Assembly (NCBI GenBank): GCA_002104935.1
Contig: MCGT01000032.1
Coordinates: forward strand, 186,001 to 250,000
Length of the DNA stretch: 64,000 bases
Source: Hesseltinella vesiculosa
Taxonomy: Eukaryota; Mucoromycota; Mucoromycetes; Mucorales; Cunninghamellaceae
Direction of reading: 5' to 3'
Shown in pieces: positions 5,406 to 61,963 of the stretch (the stretch's first letter is position 1; each line of letters starts with the position of its first letter). The notes beneath the pieces are model-generated. The model had not been told where the DNA came from. It did not search any database and worked only from the letters and a program-made list of their open reading frames with translations. The translations under genes were made by a program, and so were the position numbers.

Positions 5406-7260
<1,855 letters not shown>

Positions 7261-9278: not shown

Positions 9279-10696
9279 TATGTCTGTGCACCATATCACA
9301 TAGGCTTACCGTCGACCAAGTTTTGGCGTAATGCCCTGTCCAAAATTTAAACTCATCCAGTAAGCCCTCCACCTCCCAACAGCTCTCCTCAGCAAAATGT
9401 GTACGTGTATAGACATCACTTCAGGGCATGTGTCTTTTGACTACATTTATGTAGAAATGGAAAGGACCGTCCACCAGCACCGCCGCTTCGATCGAAAGGT
9501 AAAAAAAAACATTAGCAGCCAGGACGACAGCGATAGAGAAGTGAGAGTTTACTCTCACATAAACCCACAAATGATGCCTTCAAACATCAGCAATAGTAAA
9601 AAGTAAAAAAAAAACGACGGAGGCTACTCAAATCACTCTGATCAAGCCAGGGTACGCTGTTTTATGAACAAAATGCGCTCATTTTTGAAAAAAAAACTAC
9701 CAAAAATCACGTTGATCAAGCCAGGACACACTGATTTACTCTCATTTTGAAAAAAAAAAATCCTCAGGACACGGGTGAAAACAGTCAAAATCTGAAGAAG
9801 CAACTCGGGAGCTGAAAGCAGGTGCATCCCAGGTTCAATAAAAAACCCATATTTAGACATGGCAAGAAAAGTGTCAATTTTAAGCAAATACTTGCCTTCA
9901 AAGGGAATTTAAATAATTGTGAGCGATATATTTTTCTTTATTTGGGGAGTGGATTTTTTGAAAATATACTTTCCTAAAAAGTATAATTGCTACTTTTTTA
10001 GAAAGTATATTTTCAAAAAATCCACTCCCCAAATAAAGAAAAATATATCGCTCACAATTATTTAAATTCCCTTTGAAGGCAAGTATTTGCTTAAAATTGA
10101 CACTTTTCTTGCCATGTCTAAATATGGGTTTTTTATTGAACCTGGGATGCACCTGCTTTCAGCTCCCGAGTTGCTTCTTCAGATTTTGACTGTTTTCACC
10201 CGTGTCCTGAGGATTTTTTTTTTTCAAAATGAGAGTAAATCAGTGTGTCCTGGCTTGATCAACGTGATTTTTGGTAGTTTTTTTTTCAAAAATGAGCGCA
10301 TTTTGTTCATAAAACAGCGTACCCTGGCTTGATCAGAGTGATTTGAGTAGCCTCCGTCGTTTTTTTTTTACTTTTTACTATTGCTGATGTTTGAAGGCAT
10401 CATTTGTGGGTTTATGTGAGAGTAAACTCTCACTTCTCTATCGCTGTCGTCCTGGCTGCTAATGTTTTTTTTTACCTTTCGATCGAAGCGGCGGTGCTGG
10501 TGGACGGTCCTTTCCATTTCTACATAAATGTAGTCAAAAGACACATGCCCTGAAGTGATGTCTATACACGTACACATTTTGCTGAGGAGAGCTGTTGGGA
10601 GGTGGAGGGCTTACTGGATGAGTTTAAATTTTGGACAGGGCATTACGCCAAAACTTGGTCGACGGTAAGCCTATGTGATATGGTGCACAGACATAT
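9279..10696. repeat. central part of the palindrome
   Basis: The innermost roughly 700 bp of each arm. Open frames of 69 and 81 codons occur in mirror-image copies (9397-9606 with 10368-10577; 9642-9887 with 10087-10332) but have no recognisable motif and contain simple A/T tracts, so they are not called as genes. The strand-pairing potential is extreme: a single-stranded copy would fold into one hairpin. Confidence 0.8.
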
Positions 10697-10989: not shown

Positions 10990-11775
10990 ACCAGATGAAG
11001 AAGAAGAAGAAAGCGAATGGAAGGAAAAGGAAAAAAAAAAAAAAGGTGGGCAGACAAGATAGGCAGTCTTCCAGCCAAAATCTTAGTCAAAGGTTCGAAA
11101 TTGGCGCATACGAAAAACCACAGAGCAAAATTGGTCCAAGTCAATTCACGCCAAATTTTGCATACGAGCAAAAAGTGATGAGAAATGCATTAATTAAAAT
11201 GAAATTCTCTCAAACGGCAGAGTGAATTGCTAGAAAGCTGATTGCCAATTGGCTTGTGTGCACCAACCAGGAATCCAAGGCATTGTGCGGAGACTGAATA
11301 TGGCACTCCAAGCAATTTTACATTTAAAAAACCAAAACGCTGTGCAGCACTTTTGAGTGATTGGATTGAAGTGGGATTTTGTATGGAGATGCAAATGCAT
11401 GAATGATGATGGTGCTGAAAAATCCAGGTCGATTGGTGAAGGTCGCCCAGCCAACTTTTGATCAGGTTCGCTTTGACACGTCCGATTGACCAGCTAAAAA
11501 AAATGAAAAATCGGCCATTTTCGCCAGGGAACCCCCCAGGCGATCTAATCAAAGTTGACAGTGCAAAATTGCTCTAAATAAATTCATTCCAAATTTTGCA
11601 AACGAACACAAAATGATGAGAAATGGCATATGACCAACATTACAGCTCTCTCAGACAGCAAAGCGAATAGTCAGAGTGTTGACAAACATGCGCTAGAAAT
11701 GATTATGCAAGCACTTGGATGATTTAGCGGATTGTCCGATTGGCCTGCTAAAAAAAAAATAGAAAAAGCCTGATT
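10990..11775 (+). repeat. dispersed repeat family, copy in right palindrome arm
   Basis: Mirror image of 6640-7260. Carries CCAACTTTTGATCAGGTTCG, TTTGACACGTCCGATTGACC and TCGGCCATTTTCGCCAGGGA, the same hallmark strings as the copies near 24 kb and 39 kb. A further partial unit begins near 11735. An imperfect inverted repeat with GATTCCC and GGGAATC arms lies at about 11771-11798, just at the outer boundary. Confidence 0.75.
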
Positions 11776-35700: not shown

Positions 35701-38510
35701 CTATCGTACACGCTATGTTCGCATGCAACACCTGGCCCTTTCCCTGCAATGCGTGGCTAGACACAAAGCTGCTAAAGCTCAACTTCAAGTTCTAATGGAC
35801 CACAAGGCTGCCACTGTGATCCAAGCCCAGTGGCGTCGCTATACCGATCGCAAGGCGTTCCTCAACAAGAAGCAAGTGGTGCTACAATTACAAACAAGTA
35901 AGACAATGAATCGCCACACGTTTGATGATTATATTTTAACCTATTTTCTCTATAGCCATTCGTGGATATTTAGCCCGACGAGACTTCTCCAGTGTACGTG
36001 AAACCATGGCCGCCATTCAAATTCAGCGAGTGGTTCGAGGATGGTAAGACATGATGAAAATGTCACTGCACAGACCGTTCACGCCCATATTCTCTTCTCC
36101 TTTTCAAACAGGTTTGCGCGCCGATACGTTCAACAGCAAACCCAGTATGTGGTGCTGCTTCAATCTTGCATTCGTCGTCGTGTAGCCCGCAAGCATCTGA
36201 TCAGTTTACGCTTGGAAGCTCGGTCCGTTGACCATTTCAAGGATGTTAACTATAAGCTAGAAAGCAAGGTGGTGGAGCTGACACAGAAGGTCACTGGCCT
36301 ACTTCGCGAAAAGAAAACAGCCGAGGACCAGGTCACACAGATGGAAAACCAGATGAGGGCATGGCAAGATAAGCACGAGCGTCTTGATAAGAGGAGCAAA
36401 GACATGGCAGACCGCTTGCTATTGCCTACAGTGCCTCGTCCCGAGTTTGAAGTTTTGCAGCAGGAACGAAACGACCTTGTCAAGGAAAACAACGATTTGA
36501 CGAACAAGCTCAACCGCCAGACAGATGAGATGGCCAAGCTGGCCGAGCAATTAACCTCTGAGCAAGAGCACAGCGCTCGTCTGGAAGCCCAACTGGAAAC
36601 TCAGCAAGCCCGTGCTACCGATGAGGCTGAAGTCACTCAGCTCAAACAACAGATCGCTGGCCTCAAAGCACAACTTGCCCAGGTGATGAACACACCTCGC
36701 CAGAATTCCAGCAACAACCTCCGTAGCCTATCGCCTGGTGAGGCTCTTGGTCGTGACCGCTCCGTATCTCCTGGACCTCCTCGCAGCAACAGCATTAAGC
36801 CCCTCGACGACCAACTCACCAACTACTCTCCTCATCGCAAAGCGCGACGCAACAGTGCAGCCGACGCATTTGTTGACCGTCCTAAATCCTCTATCGACAA
36901 TATCCGCAAGGCCGAGCAATTATCCAAGAACCCTCGCCCCACCTCCTTGGCATTTTTCGGCTCTCTCCTGGGTGGGAAGGCTGCCGGCACCACATTTGAA
37001 ATCGATGGTACCCCAGAAGAAGTGGTAAGTCGCGTTGGTGCAAGGACTGAAAGGTGTGCTCACCCAGACTTCTTTTCTGTAGATGGTGGCTATTTTACGT
37101 GATGAAGACAACTTGCACGACGAAATTCTAGAAGGTTTGATCCGCTCAGTCAAAATGCCTTTGCCCAACAGCCAAACCCAATCCTCAACCAAAGAAGTCT
37201 TTTTCCCTGCTCACATCATCGGCAACATTGTTAAGCAAATGTGGCTCTTGGGTTATATGGATGAATCCGAACGGTTATTGTTTTCCGTCATGGACACCAT
37301 TCAGAAGCAATGCCTTGTAAGTCGTAAAATTAAAGTAAAAAAAAAAAGCAGAGGATTTGCTCAACGAAATCAACTTTTTCCTTGCAGAGCTTCAGCGGCG
37401 AAGATGCCATTGTGCCTTGTGCATTCTGGCTCAGCAATGTGCATGAGTTGTTGTCTCTTGTGTGCCAAGCTGAGGTTGAATTGCAACGCGAGATGAACAG
37501 CAAAGGCACTTGGCAAGAATTTGAAAAACTGATTGCTACCATCAAGTTTGAAATGCAGTGTCTTGAAGATAACATTTTCCATGCTTGGATGAAAGAAACC
37601 AAGAAACGATTGAGCAAAATGATTATCCCTGCTGTTGTCGAAAACCAATCGCTACCAGGTTTTATTACTGCGGACACTGGCCGATTCTTGGGTAAACTGC
37701 TGACGTCACATACGCCTGTGTCCATGGATGAATTGCTAGGCTTCTTGAACAAATTGACCCGAGCCATGGAATGCTATTACTTGGAACAGGCAGTCATAAC
37801 CCAGATCCTAACTGAACTACTCAAGATGATTGGCATCTCAGCCTTTAACGACCTTTTGATGCGCAAAAATTTTTGTTCTTGGAAACGTGGTAAGCCTCCA
37901 CAAAAAAAAAGTCAATTGATCTCACTTTCATTGCCAAGCCATGCAAATCCAGTACAATATAACCCGTGTCGAAGAATGGTGCAAGACGCATGGTATACCC
38001 GAAGGCACATTGCAGTTGGAGCACTTAATGCAATGTACCAAGCTGTTGCAATTCAAAAAGGTACAGGGGTGTTTTTTTTAACTGCTCTCTTCTCATTCCT
38101 CTGCCCCTCCTCCCTAGAACACCTTGGAAGACATTAACAACATATACGATGTATGCTGGATTCTTTCTCCAACTCAAATTCAAAAATTGATCTCCAACTA
38201 CTTGATAGCAGACTATGAGGTCAGTCTCAAGAGCCAAGAGAAAGTACGCTGAGCCTGACACCTTTTATTTTTTTGTCGATGTTTCTAGAGCCCCATCCTT
38301 CCCGAAATCTTGAAAGCAGTAGCCGATCATGTTGTCAGTGGTGATCAAAGTGACGTGCTCTTGTTAGACTCGGTTGCCATCGACAACACCACCAATCCTT
38401 TCGAGATACCAATGCCTCGTGCAACCAAGGCTCAGCAATATCTCCCAGCCTGGTTCAACCTGCCTCGTCTCCGTCGTTTGATGAGCGCTATGGAGCCCAC
38501 CACTGATTAA
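32794..38510 (+). CDS. class V myosin heavy chain (Myo2/Myo4 type)
   Basis: Actin-based motor for vesicle, organelle and secretory-cargo transport to growing tips. About 17 exons with introns of 50-90 nt. Order: SH3-like N-terminus ([17 protein letters not shown]), [35 protein letters not shown]-loop [19 protein letters not shown], switch [16 protein letters not shown], switch [11 protein letters not shown], relay and converter, YIRCIKPNE, six IQ motifs (about 35630-36210), coiled coil (about 36240-36690), Ser/Pro-rich linker, and a dilute-type globular tail ([17 protein letters not shown]..., [18 protein letters not shown]). Exon 1 ends AAG followed by GCAAGG, and only this GC-AG join keeps the frame. 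The end [15 protein letters not shown] matches the family. The start [11 protein letters not shown] is preferred over an upstream ATG whose extension is poly-Phe from a T run. Confidence 0.95.
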
Positions 38511-39875: not shown

Positions 39876-40490
39876 TTGAAATGGGCAATTTTTTTTTTCT
39901 GGAGAACATTTTTGACTTGCAGCACAAGAAAAAGGGTTTCGCTAAAAAAAATTTATTCTCTCACTCCACAGGAAATGCGAAATGGTGAGCCAATTAAAAA
40001 CGCTGTAATATTGATAATACTAAAGTGAGGAAGCGCGATTAAACCTACGAGACGAGGTACAAAAATACTATGAAGATTAGCACTGGTTCATGAAGGCGCC
40101 GTGAATGGAGAAAAGAAAAAATTGAGAGTTGCTGCATGCACTTTTCCTTTTTAAGTTCGCATTCAATGGGTTATATTTATCATCAATACAAAAATGAATA
40201 CTTTCCACTTCAAACCTGTTCAAGTTACCAAACTGGATATTCGTCGTTTGACTTTTCATCTCGTAATTTGGAAGTATCATGCTCCACTTATTCCTTGTAT
40301 TCTTGAAGGTTGAAAAGGTAGTAAATAAACAAATCCTTCCTACAGACTTTGCAGGAGAGAGAGAGAGGGTGCCAGAGGCAAGAAAAACAACGAGCGGGGT
40401 TTATTGAAAGGGTGCTGCGCGTTCAAAGAGTTCTTTTTCTTTCTTTACTTTTTTTTTACAACCCTGCTTCAGCATTTATTTACATTTAAA
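39876..40490. other. intergenic, 5' flank of Fanzor gene A
   Basis: About 600 bp. A GAGAGAGAGAG run at about 40356 and T runs near 40440-40460 precede the Fanzor start. A 67-codon minus-strand open frame (40077-40280) has no motif. No terminal inverted repeat matching the downstream flank was seen. Confidence 0.4.
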
Positions 40491-43400
40491 ATGGGGCGTC
40501 ATATAAGAAGAAGGCAATTACGAATAGATGCAAATAAGACTTGGCTGTATAACTTGAAAATGAGAAAATATTACATTCTCAAAGGTACATCCTATTAGTG
40601 ACCTTGTTTGATTATTTTTTAAAACGCGTTGCTTCATGATCTCATTCTCTTCCATTAGGTTTAAAGTGTACATTGTGCCATGGATTAGGGCACAAGCGAG
40701 CAGATTGTCCTTTCAACCGTTAGTATTGATCGCCCCTACATTGCCAGTTTCTAACATTTACTTTTAAAGGTGGCAAACGAAAGTCCAAAACCCAGCTCAA
40801 AAGGGCCAACAAGCTTCTACGGAAGGCTGGCTCCATGGCCCGCAAGGAAAAGCAGAAGAACCCTGATGGGAAAAAAAGGGCCAAGAAATTCAAGTTGAAG
40901 GATCTCCAGTCTCTCTTGCTTGGTACCAATTTCAAAACCCGTGTTCGCAAGATATCTCTTTGTCATGCTCTTAACATGGCCCAAGACAATATCCAAGACC
41001 AACGCCAAGCAAAGATGGACGTCCAAGAAACCATCCTCCTATGGGTCGATCACATCCGCTATGTCTCCATCTGCGCCCAGTCGTTCTTCAACTATTATGT
41101 ACTTCATGTCATGTCTGAGGGTTCTGTGGTCGACGATACTGTATTCTGTAAAGATTTTTTCTATGGGATCTGCCAACTGGTGACTGGCAAGGCTGTGACC
41201 TCCCCCAACTCGAACATACCTGATCCTACAGCAATTTATCACCATTACCTGTCTCTCTTGGGTGACTGCCGCTTCGAATTATATTGGATCAAGGGTGCTA
41301 GTAACATGATTTCTGAAATGGCGGATGAGTTAGCCCAAATCAATCTCTTGGCTGTGACTGAACGTTTTGAAGAAAAGTGTATCAAGTATATTCGCTTTCG
41401 CTTGGTCAACACCCTCAAGGATCAGCTGTCTGACGGCCAGGTCAGTAAGAAAGAGAGAGAAAATAAGAAGGCGCGAGTTGCTCACTTTTTTTTTTTTGAC
41501 AAAGGAAATGCCAAAGTCCGGTTATATTATGAACGCATGCCAGAATATTTACGACACTGTCACCCGTCAAGAAAAAGTTGAACCACTGTCAGAAAATAGC
41601 CCCGATCTCTTGCGAACGATCGTCTCAACATTTATCTCAACCCTGAACTTTGGTCCAAGTCCAGTTACGCTGAAGGAACTTACTGCAAGTCCTGGAACAT
41701 ATTTGCAAGTACTTTACCGACTATTGCAAGAAATGGAACAAGGCAACGACCTGGAACCATCTGAGATGGGGCATGACGATGTGCATGATCAAATGGACAC
41801 AATCACCATGAAGCTGATACTATCATCTAACATGGACTATCAGGTGCTGCCTCGTCGCTGTCGCCAAAGAGTATTCAAGGGCATGATGCAATTGCTGGAG
41901 CACCCAGACAATCCAATTGACATCCCCTGGAGTCTACCGGAAGAATTTAAGACCTGGCTGTCAGATCTCGTCCTTGGCCTTCGTGTAAAGTTGGCAAACT
42001 CCAAGGCGAAACTGGCTGGCACTGACATATCAGCAGACCTTTGCTTCTCCTCCTCCACCATGAGGCAATCCAAGTCAACAGCCCTCTTTTCCCTTGTGCC
42101 GACTCTGTCCTTTCGTCGCCGGTTTATCACTTTGGATGCCTACTCATTTCGGTCAATTCTCAAGCAAGCCGGTATAAACGTGACTGTGCCGTCGGGTGAC
42201 CATTCTCATCCTTATATCCGCCTTGCTCGCGATGCCACTCTCTTTTTCACCTACCTGGACTTTCAGAAGGCTCGCCTTCGAAAATGGTAACTGAGTAACA
42301 TTGTGATGGCAGGAATCGCGACTGATTTTTTTTTTAGTACTGCCGCATTTTTGCATTATCCAACGCTCACTGAAACTGACAGCGACAGTGATGATGACGC
42401 TGGTGGTGCTGATCCCGATGCTGACAACGGTGATGCCGAAGATAATAGTGGCAGTGTTACTGATGGAAATGCTAATGACATCGGCAACCCTACTGACGGT
42501 TCTGATGGTGCTCACAATACTCCATCGGAGGGCGAAAGCGACGATGGTGATCAAGATCAAGGCAGATTTACTGCCGAGACAACACGCCTGGACGATGGCA
42601 GCGATACTCAATTGACAGAAATCGATAATAGCGATAGCGATGAAGAGGAAGATGATGATCCTGCCTCCTTGGTATTTTCCAACCGTGTTCGCACTGATGG
42701 GCTTCAATTGGAATTTATCTATGGCAAGCGCGCACCCCAAATTGAACTTCCTGATCTCGAAATGGACGACTTGCATGGTGAACCACAAGAACGTATGCAG
42801 CTGTATGGAGTCGATCCAGGACATAGTGAGCTTTACACATCTGCTCAAGAAGACAAGTACCTCCCGGGGAATGATCGCACTGCCCCAGGCACTGAACACA
42901 GCAGCAACAGCACCAACGGTTGGCATGGTCGGTACATGCGATTCTCGAATAATGAATGGCTATCACTCTCTGGTCGACATGGGCGCTCATGCATTCGAAA
43001 ACGTTGGCTCAAAGATTCTGGCATGGAGGAGATCCTCACGCGTATACCACCAGCAAAAACTAGTCATCCTGACCGCTTCATTCAGCGCACCATCTACGTA
43101 TTCCAACACCTTGATGACATCACCGAACATTTTGCTGACGACTATACCCTGCATCGGTTCCTGGACTATTGTGGGGACAAGAAGATGTGCGCAGAAGTCG
43201 TTAACCACTTCGTCCATGGCGGTAACAAGTACAAACAGAAGGAAGACTATGATAGGTATGCACTACACAAAAAAAGGTGTGATGCCTGGGCTAACTTTTT
43301 TTATAGCCGCAAACTTCCAGTGATTGCCTATGGTGGTGCATTGTTTGCGCAAACCCGAAGAGGGAAAAAATCCACTCGCTCCGGAAAAGTGTACAAAGCA

Positions 43401-43824
43401 CTCAAAATAGCGGAAAAGCAAGGGTTACTTCTTGTTACAAAAACAAATGAATACAACACAAGCAAGGTAAATCATGAGGAGAGGGAAAAATGAAGCGCAA
43501 AATGACCTTTTTTTTCTATCTCATTTTTTTTTACAGGTCTGTCCAATGTGTGATGAAAAAGACCTTGAACACAAGACCGTCGGTGACCTATTCCTGCGAG
43601 GTGCAAGCATGTCTTTGTGGTCGGTTCTACAGTGCCAACACTGTAAAATCAACTGGGACAGGGACAAGCTTGCGGCTTGGAATATGTTGCGTCTTGGCAA
43701 GACTGCCCTCCAAGGATTGCCTCGCCCAGCGTTGTTCTGCCCACCACGATCCACCTCCACCGACCAATCATCACCACACCAACAAAATTCAGCAGTTGCT
43801 TCTTCGTCTCGGGACCCTCACTAA
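40491..43824 (+). CDS. Fanzor (eukaryotic TnpB-like RNA-guided nuclease), gene A
   Basis: Predicted OMEGA-class nuclease of 990 aa. Seven exons: 40491-40584, 40659-40718, 40770-41440, 41505-42286, 42338-43255, 43307-43466 and 43537-43824, all phase-consistent. A basic N-terminus is followed by a CCHC zinc knuckle (CTLCHGLGHKRADC) and CPFNR. A long Lys-rich and helical region then leads to conserved strings shared with gene B (RRRFITLDAYSF, FFTYLDFQKARLRKW). An Asp/Glu-rich insertion lies at about 42370-42660. RuvC-I is LYGVDPGH (Asp near 42814). RuvC-II is TKTNEYNTSKVCPMC (Glu near 43449), whose CxxC opens a zinc ribbon closed by LQCQHC. RuvC-III is NWDRDKLAAWNML (Asp near 43657-43664). All catalytic positions are present. 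Transposon ends were not found. The nearest alternative, a generic TnpB-like fragment, is excluded by complete motif order. Confidence 0.88.
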
Positions 43825-44360
43825 TGAATATCTTTACCTCGCTGGCCAATAAACCAGCTTATTTACGTAAGCCTGAGGCAGAATGTGAAGAGAAATGCTG
43901 ATTTTTTTTATTGGCAGGTTTGTCATGAAAATGAATAAAGTAAGTTTAGATGAAAATAATTCAAGCGCCTGATTGGCTACTAACATTGGATTTTTTTCTG
44001 TAGTGTCAACGATCGAAGAAATCTGGTAGAGAAAGTATTTAGCTTCTCGTTATCGCCAAGTTCCTGTGAGTCAACTACGAAAGAGGAGAAAAAGGTTAAG
44101 GTTGTGGTATGCAAATGCTGTATACCAAGGACAAAAAGTCAAATGTTAATATCCACGTTTTGAGCGGATGCAATGAGAAGGAGGGCCAGGAGCGTTGCCA
44201 AGGTAGGCTGCAAAGGTCATTTGAGATTTTGATTGGTCAGCATACATTAAAGTTACCGGTGTCGTCCCAAAAGCAACTTCGCCGAAAACACTGAAAGCGG
44301 GACCGAAAAAAAACAAAAAAAAATGCGCTTTCTTTTCCATCTTGTTTATTATTTATTTCA
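43825..44360. other. 3' flank of Fanzor gene A; possible structured RNA
   Basis: Just after the stop there are two small adjacent hairpins: GCTGG/CCAGC (43841-43858) and GCTTA/TAAGC (about 43857-43871). In TnpB/Fanzor systems the guide (omega) RNA is usually encoded at the 3' end of, or just after, the nuclease gene, so this is the place to look; the sequence alone does not prove an RNA. The rest is the 5' flank of the cullin gene. Confidence 0.35.
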
Positions 44361-49516
<5,156 letters not shown>

Positions 49517-57021: not shown

Positions 57022-57201
57022 ATTGATATTTTACAGTTTTTCCAGGAAAGGAAGTCGCCCTCTGTGTGAAACACTGTCGCCTTTTTCAGGACGGATGCGT
57101 CGCGTTGTAATGAAATGAATGAGACTTACACATGGCTTCTGCTTTCCAGTATCAACTGAATGTGAAGGACCACAGTATCACTTTTTCTCTTCGAAAACAT
57201 G

Positions 57202-57578
57202 GAGCTCGATAGGATGGATGCCAAGGAAGAAGATGGAAGCCTGAAAAGCCCAGGGTTTTTATTACTTGATTATTTCAGGCTCGTTTACCCACTCCCTCTT
57301 TCTTATTTTTAGTTCTTGCTTTCCTTCAGCCGATCTCTTGTAAAATAAATGTCACAATCACTTTCGTTTATCCATGAGGTTAAACGAAGAGCCCTAAAAG
57401 AGAGAAGATACGTTTTTGAGTGAGCAATCAGAGCTGCAGTCGCGCGTCCCTTTTTCCTCTCCGCCTTATTTTTTTGTTTGCTTTCCTCTCCCTCTCTCTC
57501 TCTCTCTCTCTCACTTTTTTTTTTCTCCTTCACGCATTTACCTTTCGACTTTGTTCACCTTATTCTTGTAGTTATGCA
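57202..57578. promoter_or_regulatory. 5' region of Fanzor gene B with (CT)n tract
   Basis: Separates the divergent HTH gene and Fanzor gene B. Contains an uninterrupted CT repeat at about 57491-57512 followed by T runs, resembling a pyrimidine-rich fungal promoter or leader. Confidence 0.4.
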
Positions 57579-60500
57579 ATGTCCCAAACCATTCTACAAC
57601 AAAGAGCCTATTTGGAGGGTCTAAAACGGCGCAAAATTGAAAGAGAGGAAGAACAAGAGCGACAAGGTGAGATCTTGCTCCAGAACAAGGACAGCTAACA
57701 GAATGCTTTGTTTCAATACATTCAGGCAGAACACCCTGTGCCAGATGCGGAAGGACAGATCATGTGGATGGTCGTTCCCGGCTCTGCCCATTCAACAGTA
57801 AGTTGACATGACAAGCATTGGTCAAACGAAATATCTGACTGGTTTTTTTTTTTTGCTGCTAGGACATTATGGGGCACCAACCCAAGCAGTTGTGAGACAG
57901 CAGAACAGACAAGGGAGAAGAGCAGGCCAACGGCAATTGGACGCCGCCCGGGCCAATCCCAACGTTCCCCGATGCTCACACTGCATTCTCCCGGACGGAA
58001 GCAATGATGCGTGCGAGCACCACGGAAATGCTGCCAGCCACCTCTGCCATGCCCATAAAACCAATGTGGACGATGTTCTGGGCAACATCATTGGTCCAAA
58101 CCACACCCCTTTTGTCCGTCGCTGTTCTCTGAAGCATGCCCTGCGATGCTATGGCCATTCCAGACGGCAGCGAATGCGTGCCAAAGCAAATGTGATACAA
58201 GAAGTGAACGTCGTTGTCGACCATGTGCGGGATCTGTCGATCAAAGCCATGCTTTTTACCCAACATCATGCTCTGACACTGTTGGAAGGTTCTGAGCCAA
58301 TCCCTCTCCATTTTGGCTCGCAAGATTACATTTATGGCGTTATGCAGTTGCTGCTTGGTGGTCACATCACGAATCAAAATCCGAACCTCCCCCAAGACAC
58401 AGAATCCATTTTTCACGCATATGTCCAATCATTCGAAACCGCGGATCTCCCAACAGTTCAACCGTTACCTGGCTATTCCCAAACGTACGCTCATATGGCC
58501 AAGACCCTAGCCACAGCGGTCAAGAATGGCCTGGCTGAATCATTTGAACCTCGCTGCCGAACCTTCTTGGCGTTCAAATTCCGATCTTTGATTCCAGCCA
58601 ATGTAAGTTGCGAGGGAAAAGAAGACAGGAACTGAACAACTCTCCCTCTTTGCCTCTTAACAGGAAAAGCCAACTAAAAAATCATTGAAGAAATTGGTGT
58701 CATTTGCCTACGACACTCTCTGCGGGACTGACAGCGAACCAGCAACTCCTACGTATGCACATGCTTCCTGGCAAGATGCTGTGGCGTCAGTGATTTCCAA
58801 TGTGACCCTAGGGCCGACGCCTGTGAATTTGGAAAATCTAACAGCCAAGTTTAACTTATACTTGCCCGTCGTGTATGGATTCCTTGGTAAGGGCGTAAAA
58901 AGAGGCTCAATTGTGTCAAAGGAAATAGGACTCATCTCTTCCTCCTCCAAAAAATAAAAATAGCTGAAATGGAAGCCTACAATAATGCAGCCACTGGTGT
59001 AGTGAGCGAAGAAACAATCGTCGACTATGCTGACAACAAGAGCTGCTGGGAGCTGCTTACGCGTTTGGACCAATTCAATGATATGGGCCGCCGGCAGCAA
59101 AACCGCCTTGTCCGTGCGTTTTTCAAAATGGTCAACCATCCGACGATGCCTGTCAGATTTGGCCCAAAGCTTGGCGATTATCTTCGCAGTGGAATGACAA
59201 CATTGGTAACAAAAACCCGTGAACAACTCTCGTTGTCACGCCAATTCCTGAATGGACGGTATATGATCGACACGTCAGTATGCTTCAGAACGACAACAGC
59301 TTCAACAATGCATGTCACAAAAATGTATACCCTGCTGCCTGCTCTTCGATTCACGCGCAAGTTTGTGACTCTGGATGCCCAGTGTCTGGCCCGGATTTTC
59401 GACCAAGCAGGTGCACAACCTCGATACGAAGATTATTTGTTCGTCGGCAATCCTGTGGCAATGGACGGCCCTAACGACGAACCATCCAGACGAGGACGAC
59501 CCAGACAGCCGGTTCTTTCTGACTATCAAAAGATCAAGAAGAAGTTCCTGGTATTTTGGACTTCGTTGGATTTCAAAAAGGTCCGACTGGAGCAGTGGTA
59601 AGCTTGGGCAGGTGAATAGAAAAAAAAAAAAGCGGGCATCGTGGTAATCTTTTTGTTTCCCTAGCCGAGAATCTCTGGGGTCGTATGATGTGGATGTGCC
59701 CCCTGAAGGGAACAAAATAGCATTCAGGAACCTTGTACGAACTGATGGCCATACCCTGGAATTCCTGTGCGAACGGAAAAGCCGAGAACGCCTGCCTGAT
59801 CTCGTCATGAGTGACTTGGATGACAACGACATGGTGGAATTTTGGTCCTATGGTGTTGACCCAGGGCACACGGTGCCCTTCACAGCAGTGGATTCCGAAA
59901 AAAATTGTCTTCGATTCACAAACAACGAATTTTACGCCAAATCCGGGTATAAAAAACGTCGATACCACCGCCAGCTGTCAACCACCGAGTCTGGGATGAA
60001 CATTGCACTCAACAGCCTGCCAACGAAAAAAACGGTGTCATCGACCAGATGGACATCGTATTGCCAGTCGCTGTGCGAGACCCTGCCTGTGCTTTACCAA
60101 TTTTATGGCTCATCCTTTACCAATGCGCGCTTTTTGGCCTATGTCTCTAAGCAAAAAGTCCTGGATGAGATGGTGAACATCTTTGCGTTTGGTGGCAAAA
60201 AATATAAAGAACATGACGTACTGTAAGTATGAATGGTAAAAAAGAGAGAGGGGGGGGGATAACGGAGATTGACGTCAATCTTTATTTTTTTATTCAGTAA
60301 AAAAATACCCTTTTCAAGAATACCCCTGGTCATGATGGGCTCTGGTGTGTTCGGCTTCACACTGAAGGGGAAAAAAACACGCATGTCAATTATGCCAAAA
60401 CTCAAGCAAGCCGAGTTGGAAGGACGGCTGCTTGTCTGCGTGGTCAATGAAAGCTTTACAAGTCAAGTAAGACTGAACTGGGGTGGCGGGAAGAATAGCT

Positions 60501-60745
60501 GCTCATAACAAGTGTCTTGGTTTTAGGTATGCTGTGCCTGCCACACGCAATCTCTGTCGCTTGCGCGAGTTCTTGACCCTTTGACCGATTCCGTGGTTTC
60601 CCTCTGGTCTGTAAAGACATGCTACATTTGCCAACGCCATTGGAACCGGGACAAGTCGGCAGCCAAAAACATTCTGCACCTGGGATATTTGGAACAAGAG
60701 AAGCAACCTCGTCCCGAAGTTTTCACCAAGTCAATGAACCATTGA
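57579..60745 (+). CDS. Fanzor (eukaryotic TnpB-like RNA-guided nuclease), gene B
   Basis: Predicted OMEGA-class nuclease, 900 aa. Eight phase-consistent exons: 57579-57666, 57726-57797, 57863-58602, 58664-58886, 58964-59597, 59665-60222, 60298-60466 and 60527-60745. A charged helical N-terminus is followed by CARCGRTDHVDGRSRLCPFNR, a zinc-knuckle-like motif with longer last spacing than gene A. A Cys/His cluster (CSHCILPDGSNDACEHHG) is specific to this copy. Conserved blocks shared with gene A: FTRKFVTLDAQ, FWTSLDFKKVRLEQW, VRTDGHTLEFL. RuvC-I is SYGVDPGH (Asp near 59858). RuvC-II is VVNESFTSQVCCACH (Glu near 60448), then zinc ribbon CxxC...KTCYIC. RuvC-III is HWNRDKSAAKNIL (Asp near 60650). 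All catalytic positions are retained, so a nuclease-active protein is plausible. No flanking terminal repeats were recognised. Confidence 0.88.
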
Positions 60746-60788
60746 TGAAATCCCGAAGATTTCAATTTTACACCTTTCAAATGTAGAC

Positions 60789-60840
60789 GACAAAGGCGTC
60801 TTTGTCTGTCCTTGGTAAGAAAGATGAGAATAGACAAGGC
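60789..60840 (+). ncRNA. candidate structured RNA 3' of Fanzor gene B (possible omega RNA segment)
   Basis: Starting 44 bp after the stop codon there is a perfect 7-bp hairpin with a 4-nt loop (GACAAAG-GCGT-CTTTGTC, 60789-60806), followed by a second stem CCTTG/CAAGG closing a loop of about 20 nt (to about 60840). Location directly downstream of the nuclease gene is where TnpB/Fanzor guide RNAs are encoded. Length, ends and expression cannot be judged from sequence, so this is a hypothesis only. Confidence 0.3.
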
Positions 60841-60855
60841 AGATTCCTTACCTTT

Positions 60856-61077
60856 TTATTTAGGGTAAATTTTCAAACCATATCGAAGAGTATGAACTAA
60901 CATTTCCTTCCCTTTGTACACGGCTCTGCCTTTCCCTCTTGTATTGTAAGCTTCACTCTCGTGGAATAGCCAAGCATCACTTTCGTCACTCACCGTTCGA
61001 TTTTTATTTATTCTTAGCGGTGTTTCTTTTGGTTGATACTGTATGCTCCCTTTGGCCTTCGTGAGTACCACATCCAT
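60856..61077 (-). CDS. small hypothetical protein
   Basis: 73 codons from ATG to stop with mixed, protein-like composition (MDVVLTKAKGSIQYQPKE..., ending YGLKIYPK), no low-complexity runs, no recognised motif, TM segment or signal. It lies just beyond Fanzor gene B, convergent with it. It could be a real short gene, the last exon of a gene whose upstream exons I cannot see, or chance. Confidence 0.3.
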   Translation of the reverse strand: MDVVLTKAKGSIQYQPKETPLRINKNRTVSDESDAWLFHESEAYNTRGKGRAVYKGKEMLVHTLRYGLKIYPK

Positions 61078-61963
61078 CTCAAGTATAAGGTTTAGTTGCT
61101 TCAGGCTGACACTTATGCCTTAAATATTATAGCTCCACTCTTCGGTTTTTTTTCTCTCTTGGTGCTCATCACCACAATTGATGCACGACAATGCGACTTT
61201 TTTTTGATTTTGTTATTTCACGACTTCGTTATTTTGGTATTCCGACATTCATTTTTGGATAAAGTGTAAGCGGCCAAAGAAGAAATTGGTAGCGCGACAA
61301 TGGAGCTGTATCGAGTTTGCGAAAAAGTCATTTGAAACACGCTGAGCAAGGTTGACATTTGTTTAACAATGACTATGTCATTGCAGCCATCTACACCTAT
61401 CTAATATAATAAGTATGCGACGGAAACACGGCTGGCATGCCAGAGTGGACTGACGACGACCACCAACAGTGGTCAGCTTGGCATCAATTATTTGACGACG
61501 AGCGGCCAAACCCCCCTCCCAACCATCTAATACATATCATGTACGCAGTCTCCACACCCCATCGAGACTGTGTCTGATAAAACTTTGCACACGAGCATGA
61601 TTATAGCTAGACTCAAATCTGGCCAGATCTCATCTACTCCCCTACATATCATTTCAGGCAATTTCTTTTCCTTTACTTCCTTTTCCTCCGCTTCCTCCAC
61701 GTCCCCAAGCACTACCACCATATAAGCCCAGCCTTTCATTATTACTGTACGCCAAAATTTCATTGAGCCGTTGGTTTTTACAAAAAAAAAAGTTCTCGGC
61801 AAAGAGTATGGTTAAGCGCCACAACCTTCCAGGAAGACAACCTCTCAGAAACTGCCGATCGAGTCGAGCGGTATTTGAAAATAATGAATTGATTGAAATT
61901 GAAATTGGCAGGCACTCTTTGTGTTCCATTCTTTTTTTTTCACGTTTTTTTCATCTTGTCAAA
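61078..61963. other. intergenic, 5' flank of the septin gene
   Basis: About 890 bp without supported genes. Two small perfect palindromic signals lie close together: CTGGCATGCCAG (61432-61443) and GACCAC-caaca-GTGGTC (about 61458-61474). Open frames of up to 117 codons here have no motif. Confidence 0.4.

Follow-up and report, generated by a model that had tools for sequence, protein, structure and literature searches.

Fanzors are eukaryotic relatives of TnpB, a bacterial RNA-guided DNA cutter. The 64,000-nucleotide stretch of the Hesseltinella vesiculosa genome analysed here (the window) contains an intron-rich gene, gene A, that a preliminary description had read as an active Fanzor. Two questions follow: whether the gene is genuine, and whether its nuclease serves the host, the DNA that carries it or nothing at all. 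We put at roughly 0.9 the probability of a joint answer, in which gene A encodes a Fanzor1-type RNA-guided endonuclease, is the sole gene found in an element multiplied to 17 loci, and works as proposed below.

Gene model and motif order of gene A

Gene A (40491–43824, forward strand) is divided into seven exons that join without frame loss, as had been described, to 2973 nt (990 codons and a stop). The six introns are all GT..AG and short, at 51–74 nt (74, 51, 64, 51, 51 and 70 nt in order). Borders were set by hand from GT..AG and checked with a purpose-written spliced-alignment script, which, fed the resulting protein, recovers the same six introns and all 990 codons. Exon 1 (40491–40584) holds the start codon, exon 2 (40659–40718) a CCHC zinc knuckle (C35-x2-C38-x4-H43-x4-C48), and exons 3 (40770–41440) and 4 (41505–42286) an N-terminal lobe. 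Exon 5 (42338–43255) combines an acidic linker (about residues 541–645) with RuvC-I, where D695 (codon GAT, 42813–42815) lies within GVDPG. The alternative RuvC-II glutamate, E890 (43449–43451, within NEYNTS), is in exon 6 (43307–43466). Exon 7 (43537–43824) contains the TNB zinc ribbon (CPMC, C897/C900; CQHC, C928/C931), the RuvC-III aspartate D938 (43663–43665, within WDRDKLAAWN) and the stop codon. Exons 1, 3 and 4 are placed by the splice model and spliced alignment, exon 2 by the splice model and paralogue alignment, exons 5 and 6 by the splice model and profile alignment, and exon 7 by Pfam TNB and the profile.

The order GVDPG, NEYNTS, CPMC...CQHC, WDRDKLAAWN thus holds on the spliced frame, as first reported. 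It also agrees with the published Fanzor motif, D-X(125,275)-[TS][TS]-X-X-C4 zinc finger-X(5,50)-RD (Bao and Jurka, PMC3627910): D695 is followed by 197 residues, T893 and S894, C897/C900/C928/C931, five residues, then R937 and D938. A second signature pairs DPG at RuvC-I with an alternative glutamate that lies ahead of the first CxxC with six residues between (PMC10711439); A has DPG at 695 and E890-x6-C897, and its paralogues B and C12 likewise. NEYNTS accordingly carries the displaced RuvC-II glutamate of Fanzors, as opposed to one at the canonical TnpB position. The latter lies some 50 residues ahead of the zinc finger, and A contains no glutamate in that vicinity (residues 843–866).

The paralogues lie in the same genome. 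Gene B is in the window itself (57579–60745 including the stop, forward strand; 900 residues, seven introns), and a pair lies on contig C12 (L026 and L027; the L026 product has 880 residues). Identity of A to B and C12 is 31% and 33%, yet the motif residues of A are invariant in both, and four of its six introns match introns of both in alignment column and in phase. The other two are offset from paralogue introns by 2 to 5 columns, and one of them differs in phase in C12. When the residues of A were shuffled, none of 20,000 shuffles matched DPG ... E-x6-CxxC ... CxxC-x(3,7)-D in order; with the invariant motif residues and the common intron positions, this places the motif order beyond chance. 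Judged by its sequence, gene A is a genuine seven-exon Fanzor gene.

Profile and structure matches

The expectation that A would match Fanzor and TnpB profiles was upheld. Against Pfam TNB (PF07282), the spliced protein scores 33.3 bits over residues 877–945 (cut-off 26.3) and the last exon alone 21.5, below the cut-off; because exon 6 contributes to passing it, the splice model is itself supported. With the two NCBIfam TnpB models A scores only 14.1 and 12.1 bits, where the cut-offs are 425 and 350 (E 0.02 and 0.066); the general one matches two of three paralogues, with a best E of 3.8e-7. Searched alone against a 5.8-billion-protein set, A finds no relative at E<=1e-3, nor at E<=1, and an alignment of A with two paralogues finds none there at E<=0.1. 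In the PDB, A alone drew only Pumilio matches, which we took as chance, and found no Fanzor. More evidence was therefore needed than A by itself provides.

This came from a profile built on the three proteins A, B and C12. The leading PDB match of the profile is the Fanzor1 of Spizellomyces punctatus (SpuFz1, 8gkh; E=1.3e-5), aligned from the RuvC-I aspartate to the end; the other four of the five chains listed are three chloroplast proteins (E 0.27 to 1.2), taken as chance, and the Guillardia theta Fanzor1 (GtFz1, 9cer; E=1.5). The result sharpens when the RuvC parts of L028 and L029, two further genes here that resemble Fanzors, are added. This five-member profile matches SpuFz1 at 4.2e-10, the DPG and TNB stretches of GtFz1 at 1.5e-5 (a weaker and partial match), and LaTranC and mimivirus L79 at 2.2e-4; among the 26 chains listed up to E=10, those named TnpB follow at 0.011 to 0.097, and Cas12s are also weaker. 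The best two PDB matches, both Fanzor1, make Fanzor1, as against Fanzor2 or TnpB, the probable class of A. With the Pfam score, these matches bear out the Fanzor identity first proposed.

In the three-member alignment, chain residues 777, 935 and 1000 of 8gkh stand opposite D695, E890 and D938. Subtracting the fusion-tag offset of 394 gives D383, E541 and D606, the catalytic residues of SpuFz1 (PMC11423790), so that the two triads align. The RuvC/TNB homology of A to SpuFz1 (8gkh, 9ceu and others) extends over about 240 residues, in which the catalytic residues, alternative glutamate and zinc ribbon agree. Differences lie in the length of A (990 residues), its N-terminal zinc knuckle and the ~105-residue acidic linker before RuvC; the sequence is otherwise far diverged. 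Most Fanzor1s have 600–700 residues (PMC11423790), and A is longer than these. That A is a chance or degenerate frame merely resembling a Fanzor would fit its failure to match anything in large databases when searched alone, but a curated Pfam cut-off passed, profile matches to solved Fanzors, conserved introns and the codon-level selection described below reduce the probability of that reading to a near-negligible one.

Gene A is, then, another Fanzor and not a new kind. Fanzor1 has been published from Mucor, Rhizopus, Phycomyces and Spizellomyces (PMC3627910), and its spread in fungi has also been reported (PMC10432273). By its matches and copy data, A is of the known Fanzor1 kind in a new family, marked by an N-terminal zinc knuckle, an unusually long chain, multiple copies and preservation by selection. 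The idea that the knuckle is peculiar to A was rejected, since CxxC...H...CP stretches were seen by eye upstream in the more distant Fanzors L048 and L049. A literature search, from whose coverage most subscription papers fall outside, returned nothing on Fanzor together with Mucoromycota or with a zinc knuckle.

TNB matches are numerous in this 27-Mb genome, with 125 places at E<=1 and 45 over the cut-off (seven of them only with in-frame neighbours), counted as places (exons) and not genes. By this count the genome holds a large Fanzor complement. By eye, the C-terminal end of another Fanzor (NEFWTSQ, an intron, NCSTC..C..CQMVWDRD) is visible at about 100–450 of L026, adjoining the C12 paralogue on its upstream side; the intron has the same place, between glutamate and zinc ribbon.

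The element carrying gene A

Alignment of copies defines a Fanzor-only mobile element of ~4.05 kb (element A; 39959–44007, forward strand, the left boundary being accurate to within a few bases) in which gene A is the only gene found. It is present at 17 loci of the genome (19 matches, two loci being split), and the other 16 are 96–99% identical to the window copy. Ends near 39959 and at 44007 are common to the copies. The right end reads CTG(T/C/A)AGTGTC in 15/15 copies that reach it. The left tip (39959–39979), TCTC-N-C-N-CCAC(A/G)GGAAATGCG, differs among copies, although their bodies, where aligned, have 95–98% identity to that of the window copy: TCTC is at or adjoins the tip in 13/15 (L017 and L019 differ), and a few variable bases then lead mostly into CAC(A/G)GGAAATGCG. 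Flanks were compared with one another over up to 500 bases (14 left, 15 right). Only two pairs showed similarity, which was weak and not at the junctions; as the flanks differ, the insertions are independent. Common ends at differing sites show gene A to be carried by a eukaryotic mobile element. In the window the element sits between frames 37334–38137 (DIL, 30.8 bits, cut-off 24) and 44817–45095, the latter matching cullin at 30.8 bits, below the cut-off of 33.2. For the L013 copy, the right flank is a dispersed repeat that recurs at many places, and the element sits no more than about 2 bases from the end of that repeat.

Comparison of the copy ends reveals no constant target-site duplication (TSD). 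In L019 the left tip falls within a 14-base sequence that is directly repeated in the right flank. Across 12 copies, tips are more like their own right flanks than like those of other copies (the longest common stretches sum to 54, permutation mean 41.6, p=0.0012; p 0.018 without L019). With 40 bases of left flank included, the longest common stretch averages 6.9, against 5.3 for mismatched pairs, partly owing to T runs. These likenesses hint at, without proving, direct repeats of variable length. The two ends bear a weak resemblance to inverted repeats (p between 0.03 and 0.31, depending on how it is scored), and 33/1728 real background stretches score equally. For 10 of the 12 copies anchored at both ends, the two flanks were joined and used as a query, and no pre-insertion site was returned. 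Helitron1 ends are 5'-TC and CTRR-3' (PMC3627910); element A does not have them, its right end being GTGTC in 15/15 copies.

Published Fanzor1 elements offer parallels, drawn for Mucor, Rhizopus and Phycomyces from descriptions and not sequences (PMC3627910). MCi-2, MCi-4, MCi-5, ROr-4 and PBl-3 from these fungi are Fanzor1 elements, several without a transposase of their own; MCi-2, with 11 copies, differing 5' regions, fuzzy 5' ends and common 3' regions, resembles element A. TSDs in that set are 6, 9 or 11–12 bp, whereas element A has none that is consistent. The Chlamydomonas elements CRe-1/2/3 resemble it in their intact 3' ends, variable 5' ends and, in some copies, direct repeats that vary in length; their ends are those of Helitron2 and their insertions follow TTTT, unlike element A, for whose ends no Helitron was found (left- and right-end searches, best candidates scored; two of five relics read).

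Those searches also bear on how the element moves. Its left 421 bases match 22 places, with the best candidates scored (the 17 element loci and five short relics), and its right 186 bases match 16, all of them element loci, on the same basis. Two relics, L030 (241–530) and L031 (233–427), are isolated left-end fragments (75% and 83% identity) with the rest of the element absent; these two of the five were read, and they lie beside unrelated frames with no transposase. Among the best candidates scored from both ends, no transposase-bearing element with the ends of element A was found.

Gene B lies in an element of its own (57030–61268), matched at 17 places, window counted, at >=97% identity over at least 1.4 kb. 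It is bounded by imperfect inverted repeats of 26 nt (TACAGTTTTTCCA/TACACTTTATCCA). A TA stands at the right end in 12/12 places, of which two have a common flank, and precedes C(A/T)G on the left side in 4/6. Given the inverted repeats and the TA at its ends, it is probably of Tc1/mariner type.

Selection on the nuclease and its proposed working

In 2013 Bao and Jurka treated the question why eukaryotic transposons keep Fanzor genes under a heading that called it 'mysterious', and they took intact frames in an old family to mean that Fanzor1 matters for its own element (PMC3627910). The recent copies of element A allow a codon-level test. Seven of the 17 copies have neither frameshift nor stop (L009, the window copy, and L010 to L015), although in L013 the usual stop codon is gone and intron 5 was read from a GC donor. 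In the remaining ten the gene is damaged by frameshifts, stops or a large deletion, and L022, one of these, is truncated by a contig end as well. Catalytic and zinc residues are present in all 16 copies read; the exception is L025, from which a large internal part is deleted and which the script did not read properly.

Mean dN/dS is 0.29 among the seven intact copies (mean dS 0.051) and 0.34 over 16. By region, the intact copies give 0.08 for residues 1–56, 0.34 for 57–540, 0.97 for the acidic linker (541–645) and 0.13 for RuvC/TNB (646–970). We then separated shared variants, present in at least two of 16 copies and most likely passed on through copying, from private ones; as the copies are related, these tests count variants and not independent events. 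RuvC/TNB has 25 synonymous and 10 nonsynonymous shared variants against 1 and 15 in the linker (Fisher p=1.3e-5), with 24 and 29 in residues 57–540 and 5 and 0 in residues 1–56. The seven intact copies alone give 15 and 4 in RuvC/TNB versus 1 and 6 in the linker (p=0.005). Private variants number 39 synonymous and 61 nonsynonymous in intact copies, and 38 and 71 in broken ones; weaker purification is as expected after insertion. Because shared variants are poor in amino-acid changes in RuvC/TNB and not in the linker, the nuclease was under selection while the element multiplied. On these codon counts, the cutting domain is kept intact by selection during the spread of element A. Variants are few in the six copies of family B but point the same way: 19 are synonymous and 25 nonsynonymous (overall pN/pS 0.40), with 6 and 4 in RuvC and 6 and 6 among shared variants. 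These counts make Bao and Jurka's point more directly, in that the nuclease domain, not the linker, is preserved through copying. Our literature search, with subscription papers mostly outside its coverage, found nothing on Fanzor and purifying selection apart from a preprint on a different topic.

Two further readings concern the gene's role. As passenger cargo of a transposon moved in trans, A would have no part in the spread and be decaying; the failure of the end searches to find a transposase with these ends, the ten damaged copies and a private-variant spectrum almost as nonsynonymous in intact as in broken copies are all compatible with this. Purification of shared variants in RuvC/TNB and the zinc knuckle but not the linker speaks against it, as does the pN/pS of family B, and we regard the passenger role as unlikely, if still deserving of weight. 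Recruitment of A by the host, with its multi-copy state incidental, would equally account for purifying selection. Near-identical copies at 17 differing sites, ten of them broken, with whole-element ends conserved, form the pattern of a mobile element and not of a host gene, which leaves domestication highly improbable.

We therefore favour the Fanzor1 endonuclease working for its element, and infer that the protein is active, for which the open frame and the purifying selection on RuvC/TNB among copies speak indirectly. The 990-residue product of the spliced mRNA would comprise a zinc knuckle at the N terminus, a large N-terminal lobe, presumably of WED/REC type, the acidic linker and a RuvC/TNB nuclease predicted to use the triad D695/E890/D938. 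By analogy with studied Fanzors, A most probably binds an RNA from the right end of the element and cuts DNA matching the flank: the guide RNA would be transcribed from that end with its guide portion formed by flanking DNA, and sites matching the guide would be cut. Cutting may help the element to persist or copy, for example by attacking empty sites, and a transposase encoded elsewhere would move it.

On the same analogy, the 3' noncoding right end (43825–44007, forward strand, delimited by copy alignment) is the expected site of the guide RNA scaffold. Its predicted fold is unremarkable (z -0.40), and neither A nor B (z -1.09) gives a guide-RNA fold signal. Conservation of the 3' region was dropped as evidence for a guide RNA, its divergence in six copies (0.016–0.020 differences per site) being matched by that of the introns (0.007–0.032). 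With no fold signal and introns equally conserved, the sequence offers no independent evidence for a guide RNA. Within this region, 43940–44003 is an intron-like stretch of 64 nt (GTAAGT ... CTAAC ... CTGTAG), closely preceded by an AATAAA and with its acceptor 4 bases from the element end; GT is kept in 13/14 aligned copies and AG in 14/14. If it were spliced, flanking DNA would be brought straight up to an upstream part of the 3' region.

The favoured reading leaves movement to a transposase. Alternatively, element A might spread by its own RNA-guided breaks and their repair and not by classical transposition. This draws on a GTGTC right end fixed in 15/15 copies at the presumed scaffold/guide junction, a fuzzy left end that resembles the right flank in some copies, a nuclease under selection and the failure to find a transposase with its ends; we hold it to be a long shot beside movement by a transposase in trans. 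With 45 over-cut-off TNB places in 27 Mb and recent copies, the organism would suit tests of the use of Fanzor to its element.

Elsewhere in the window, 6661–7248, 9751–10223 and 11114–11702 form a near-palindromic repeat arrangement, in which the outer stretches are mutually inverted and the middle one matches a single query in both orientations.
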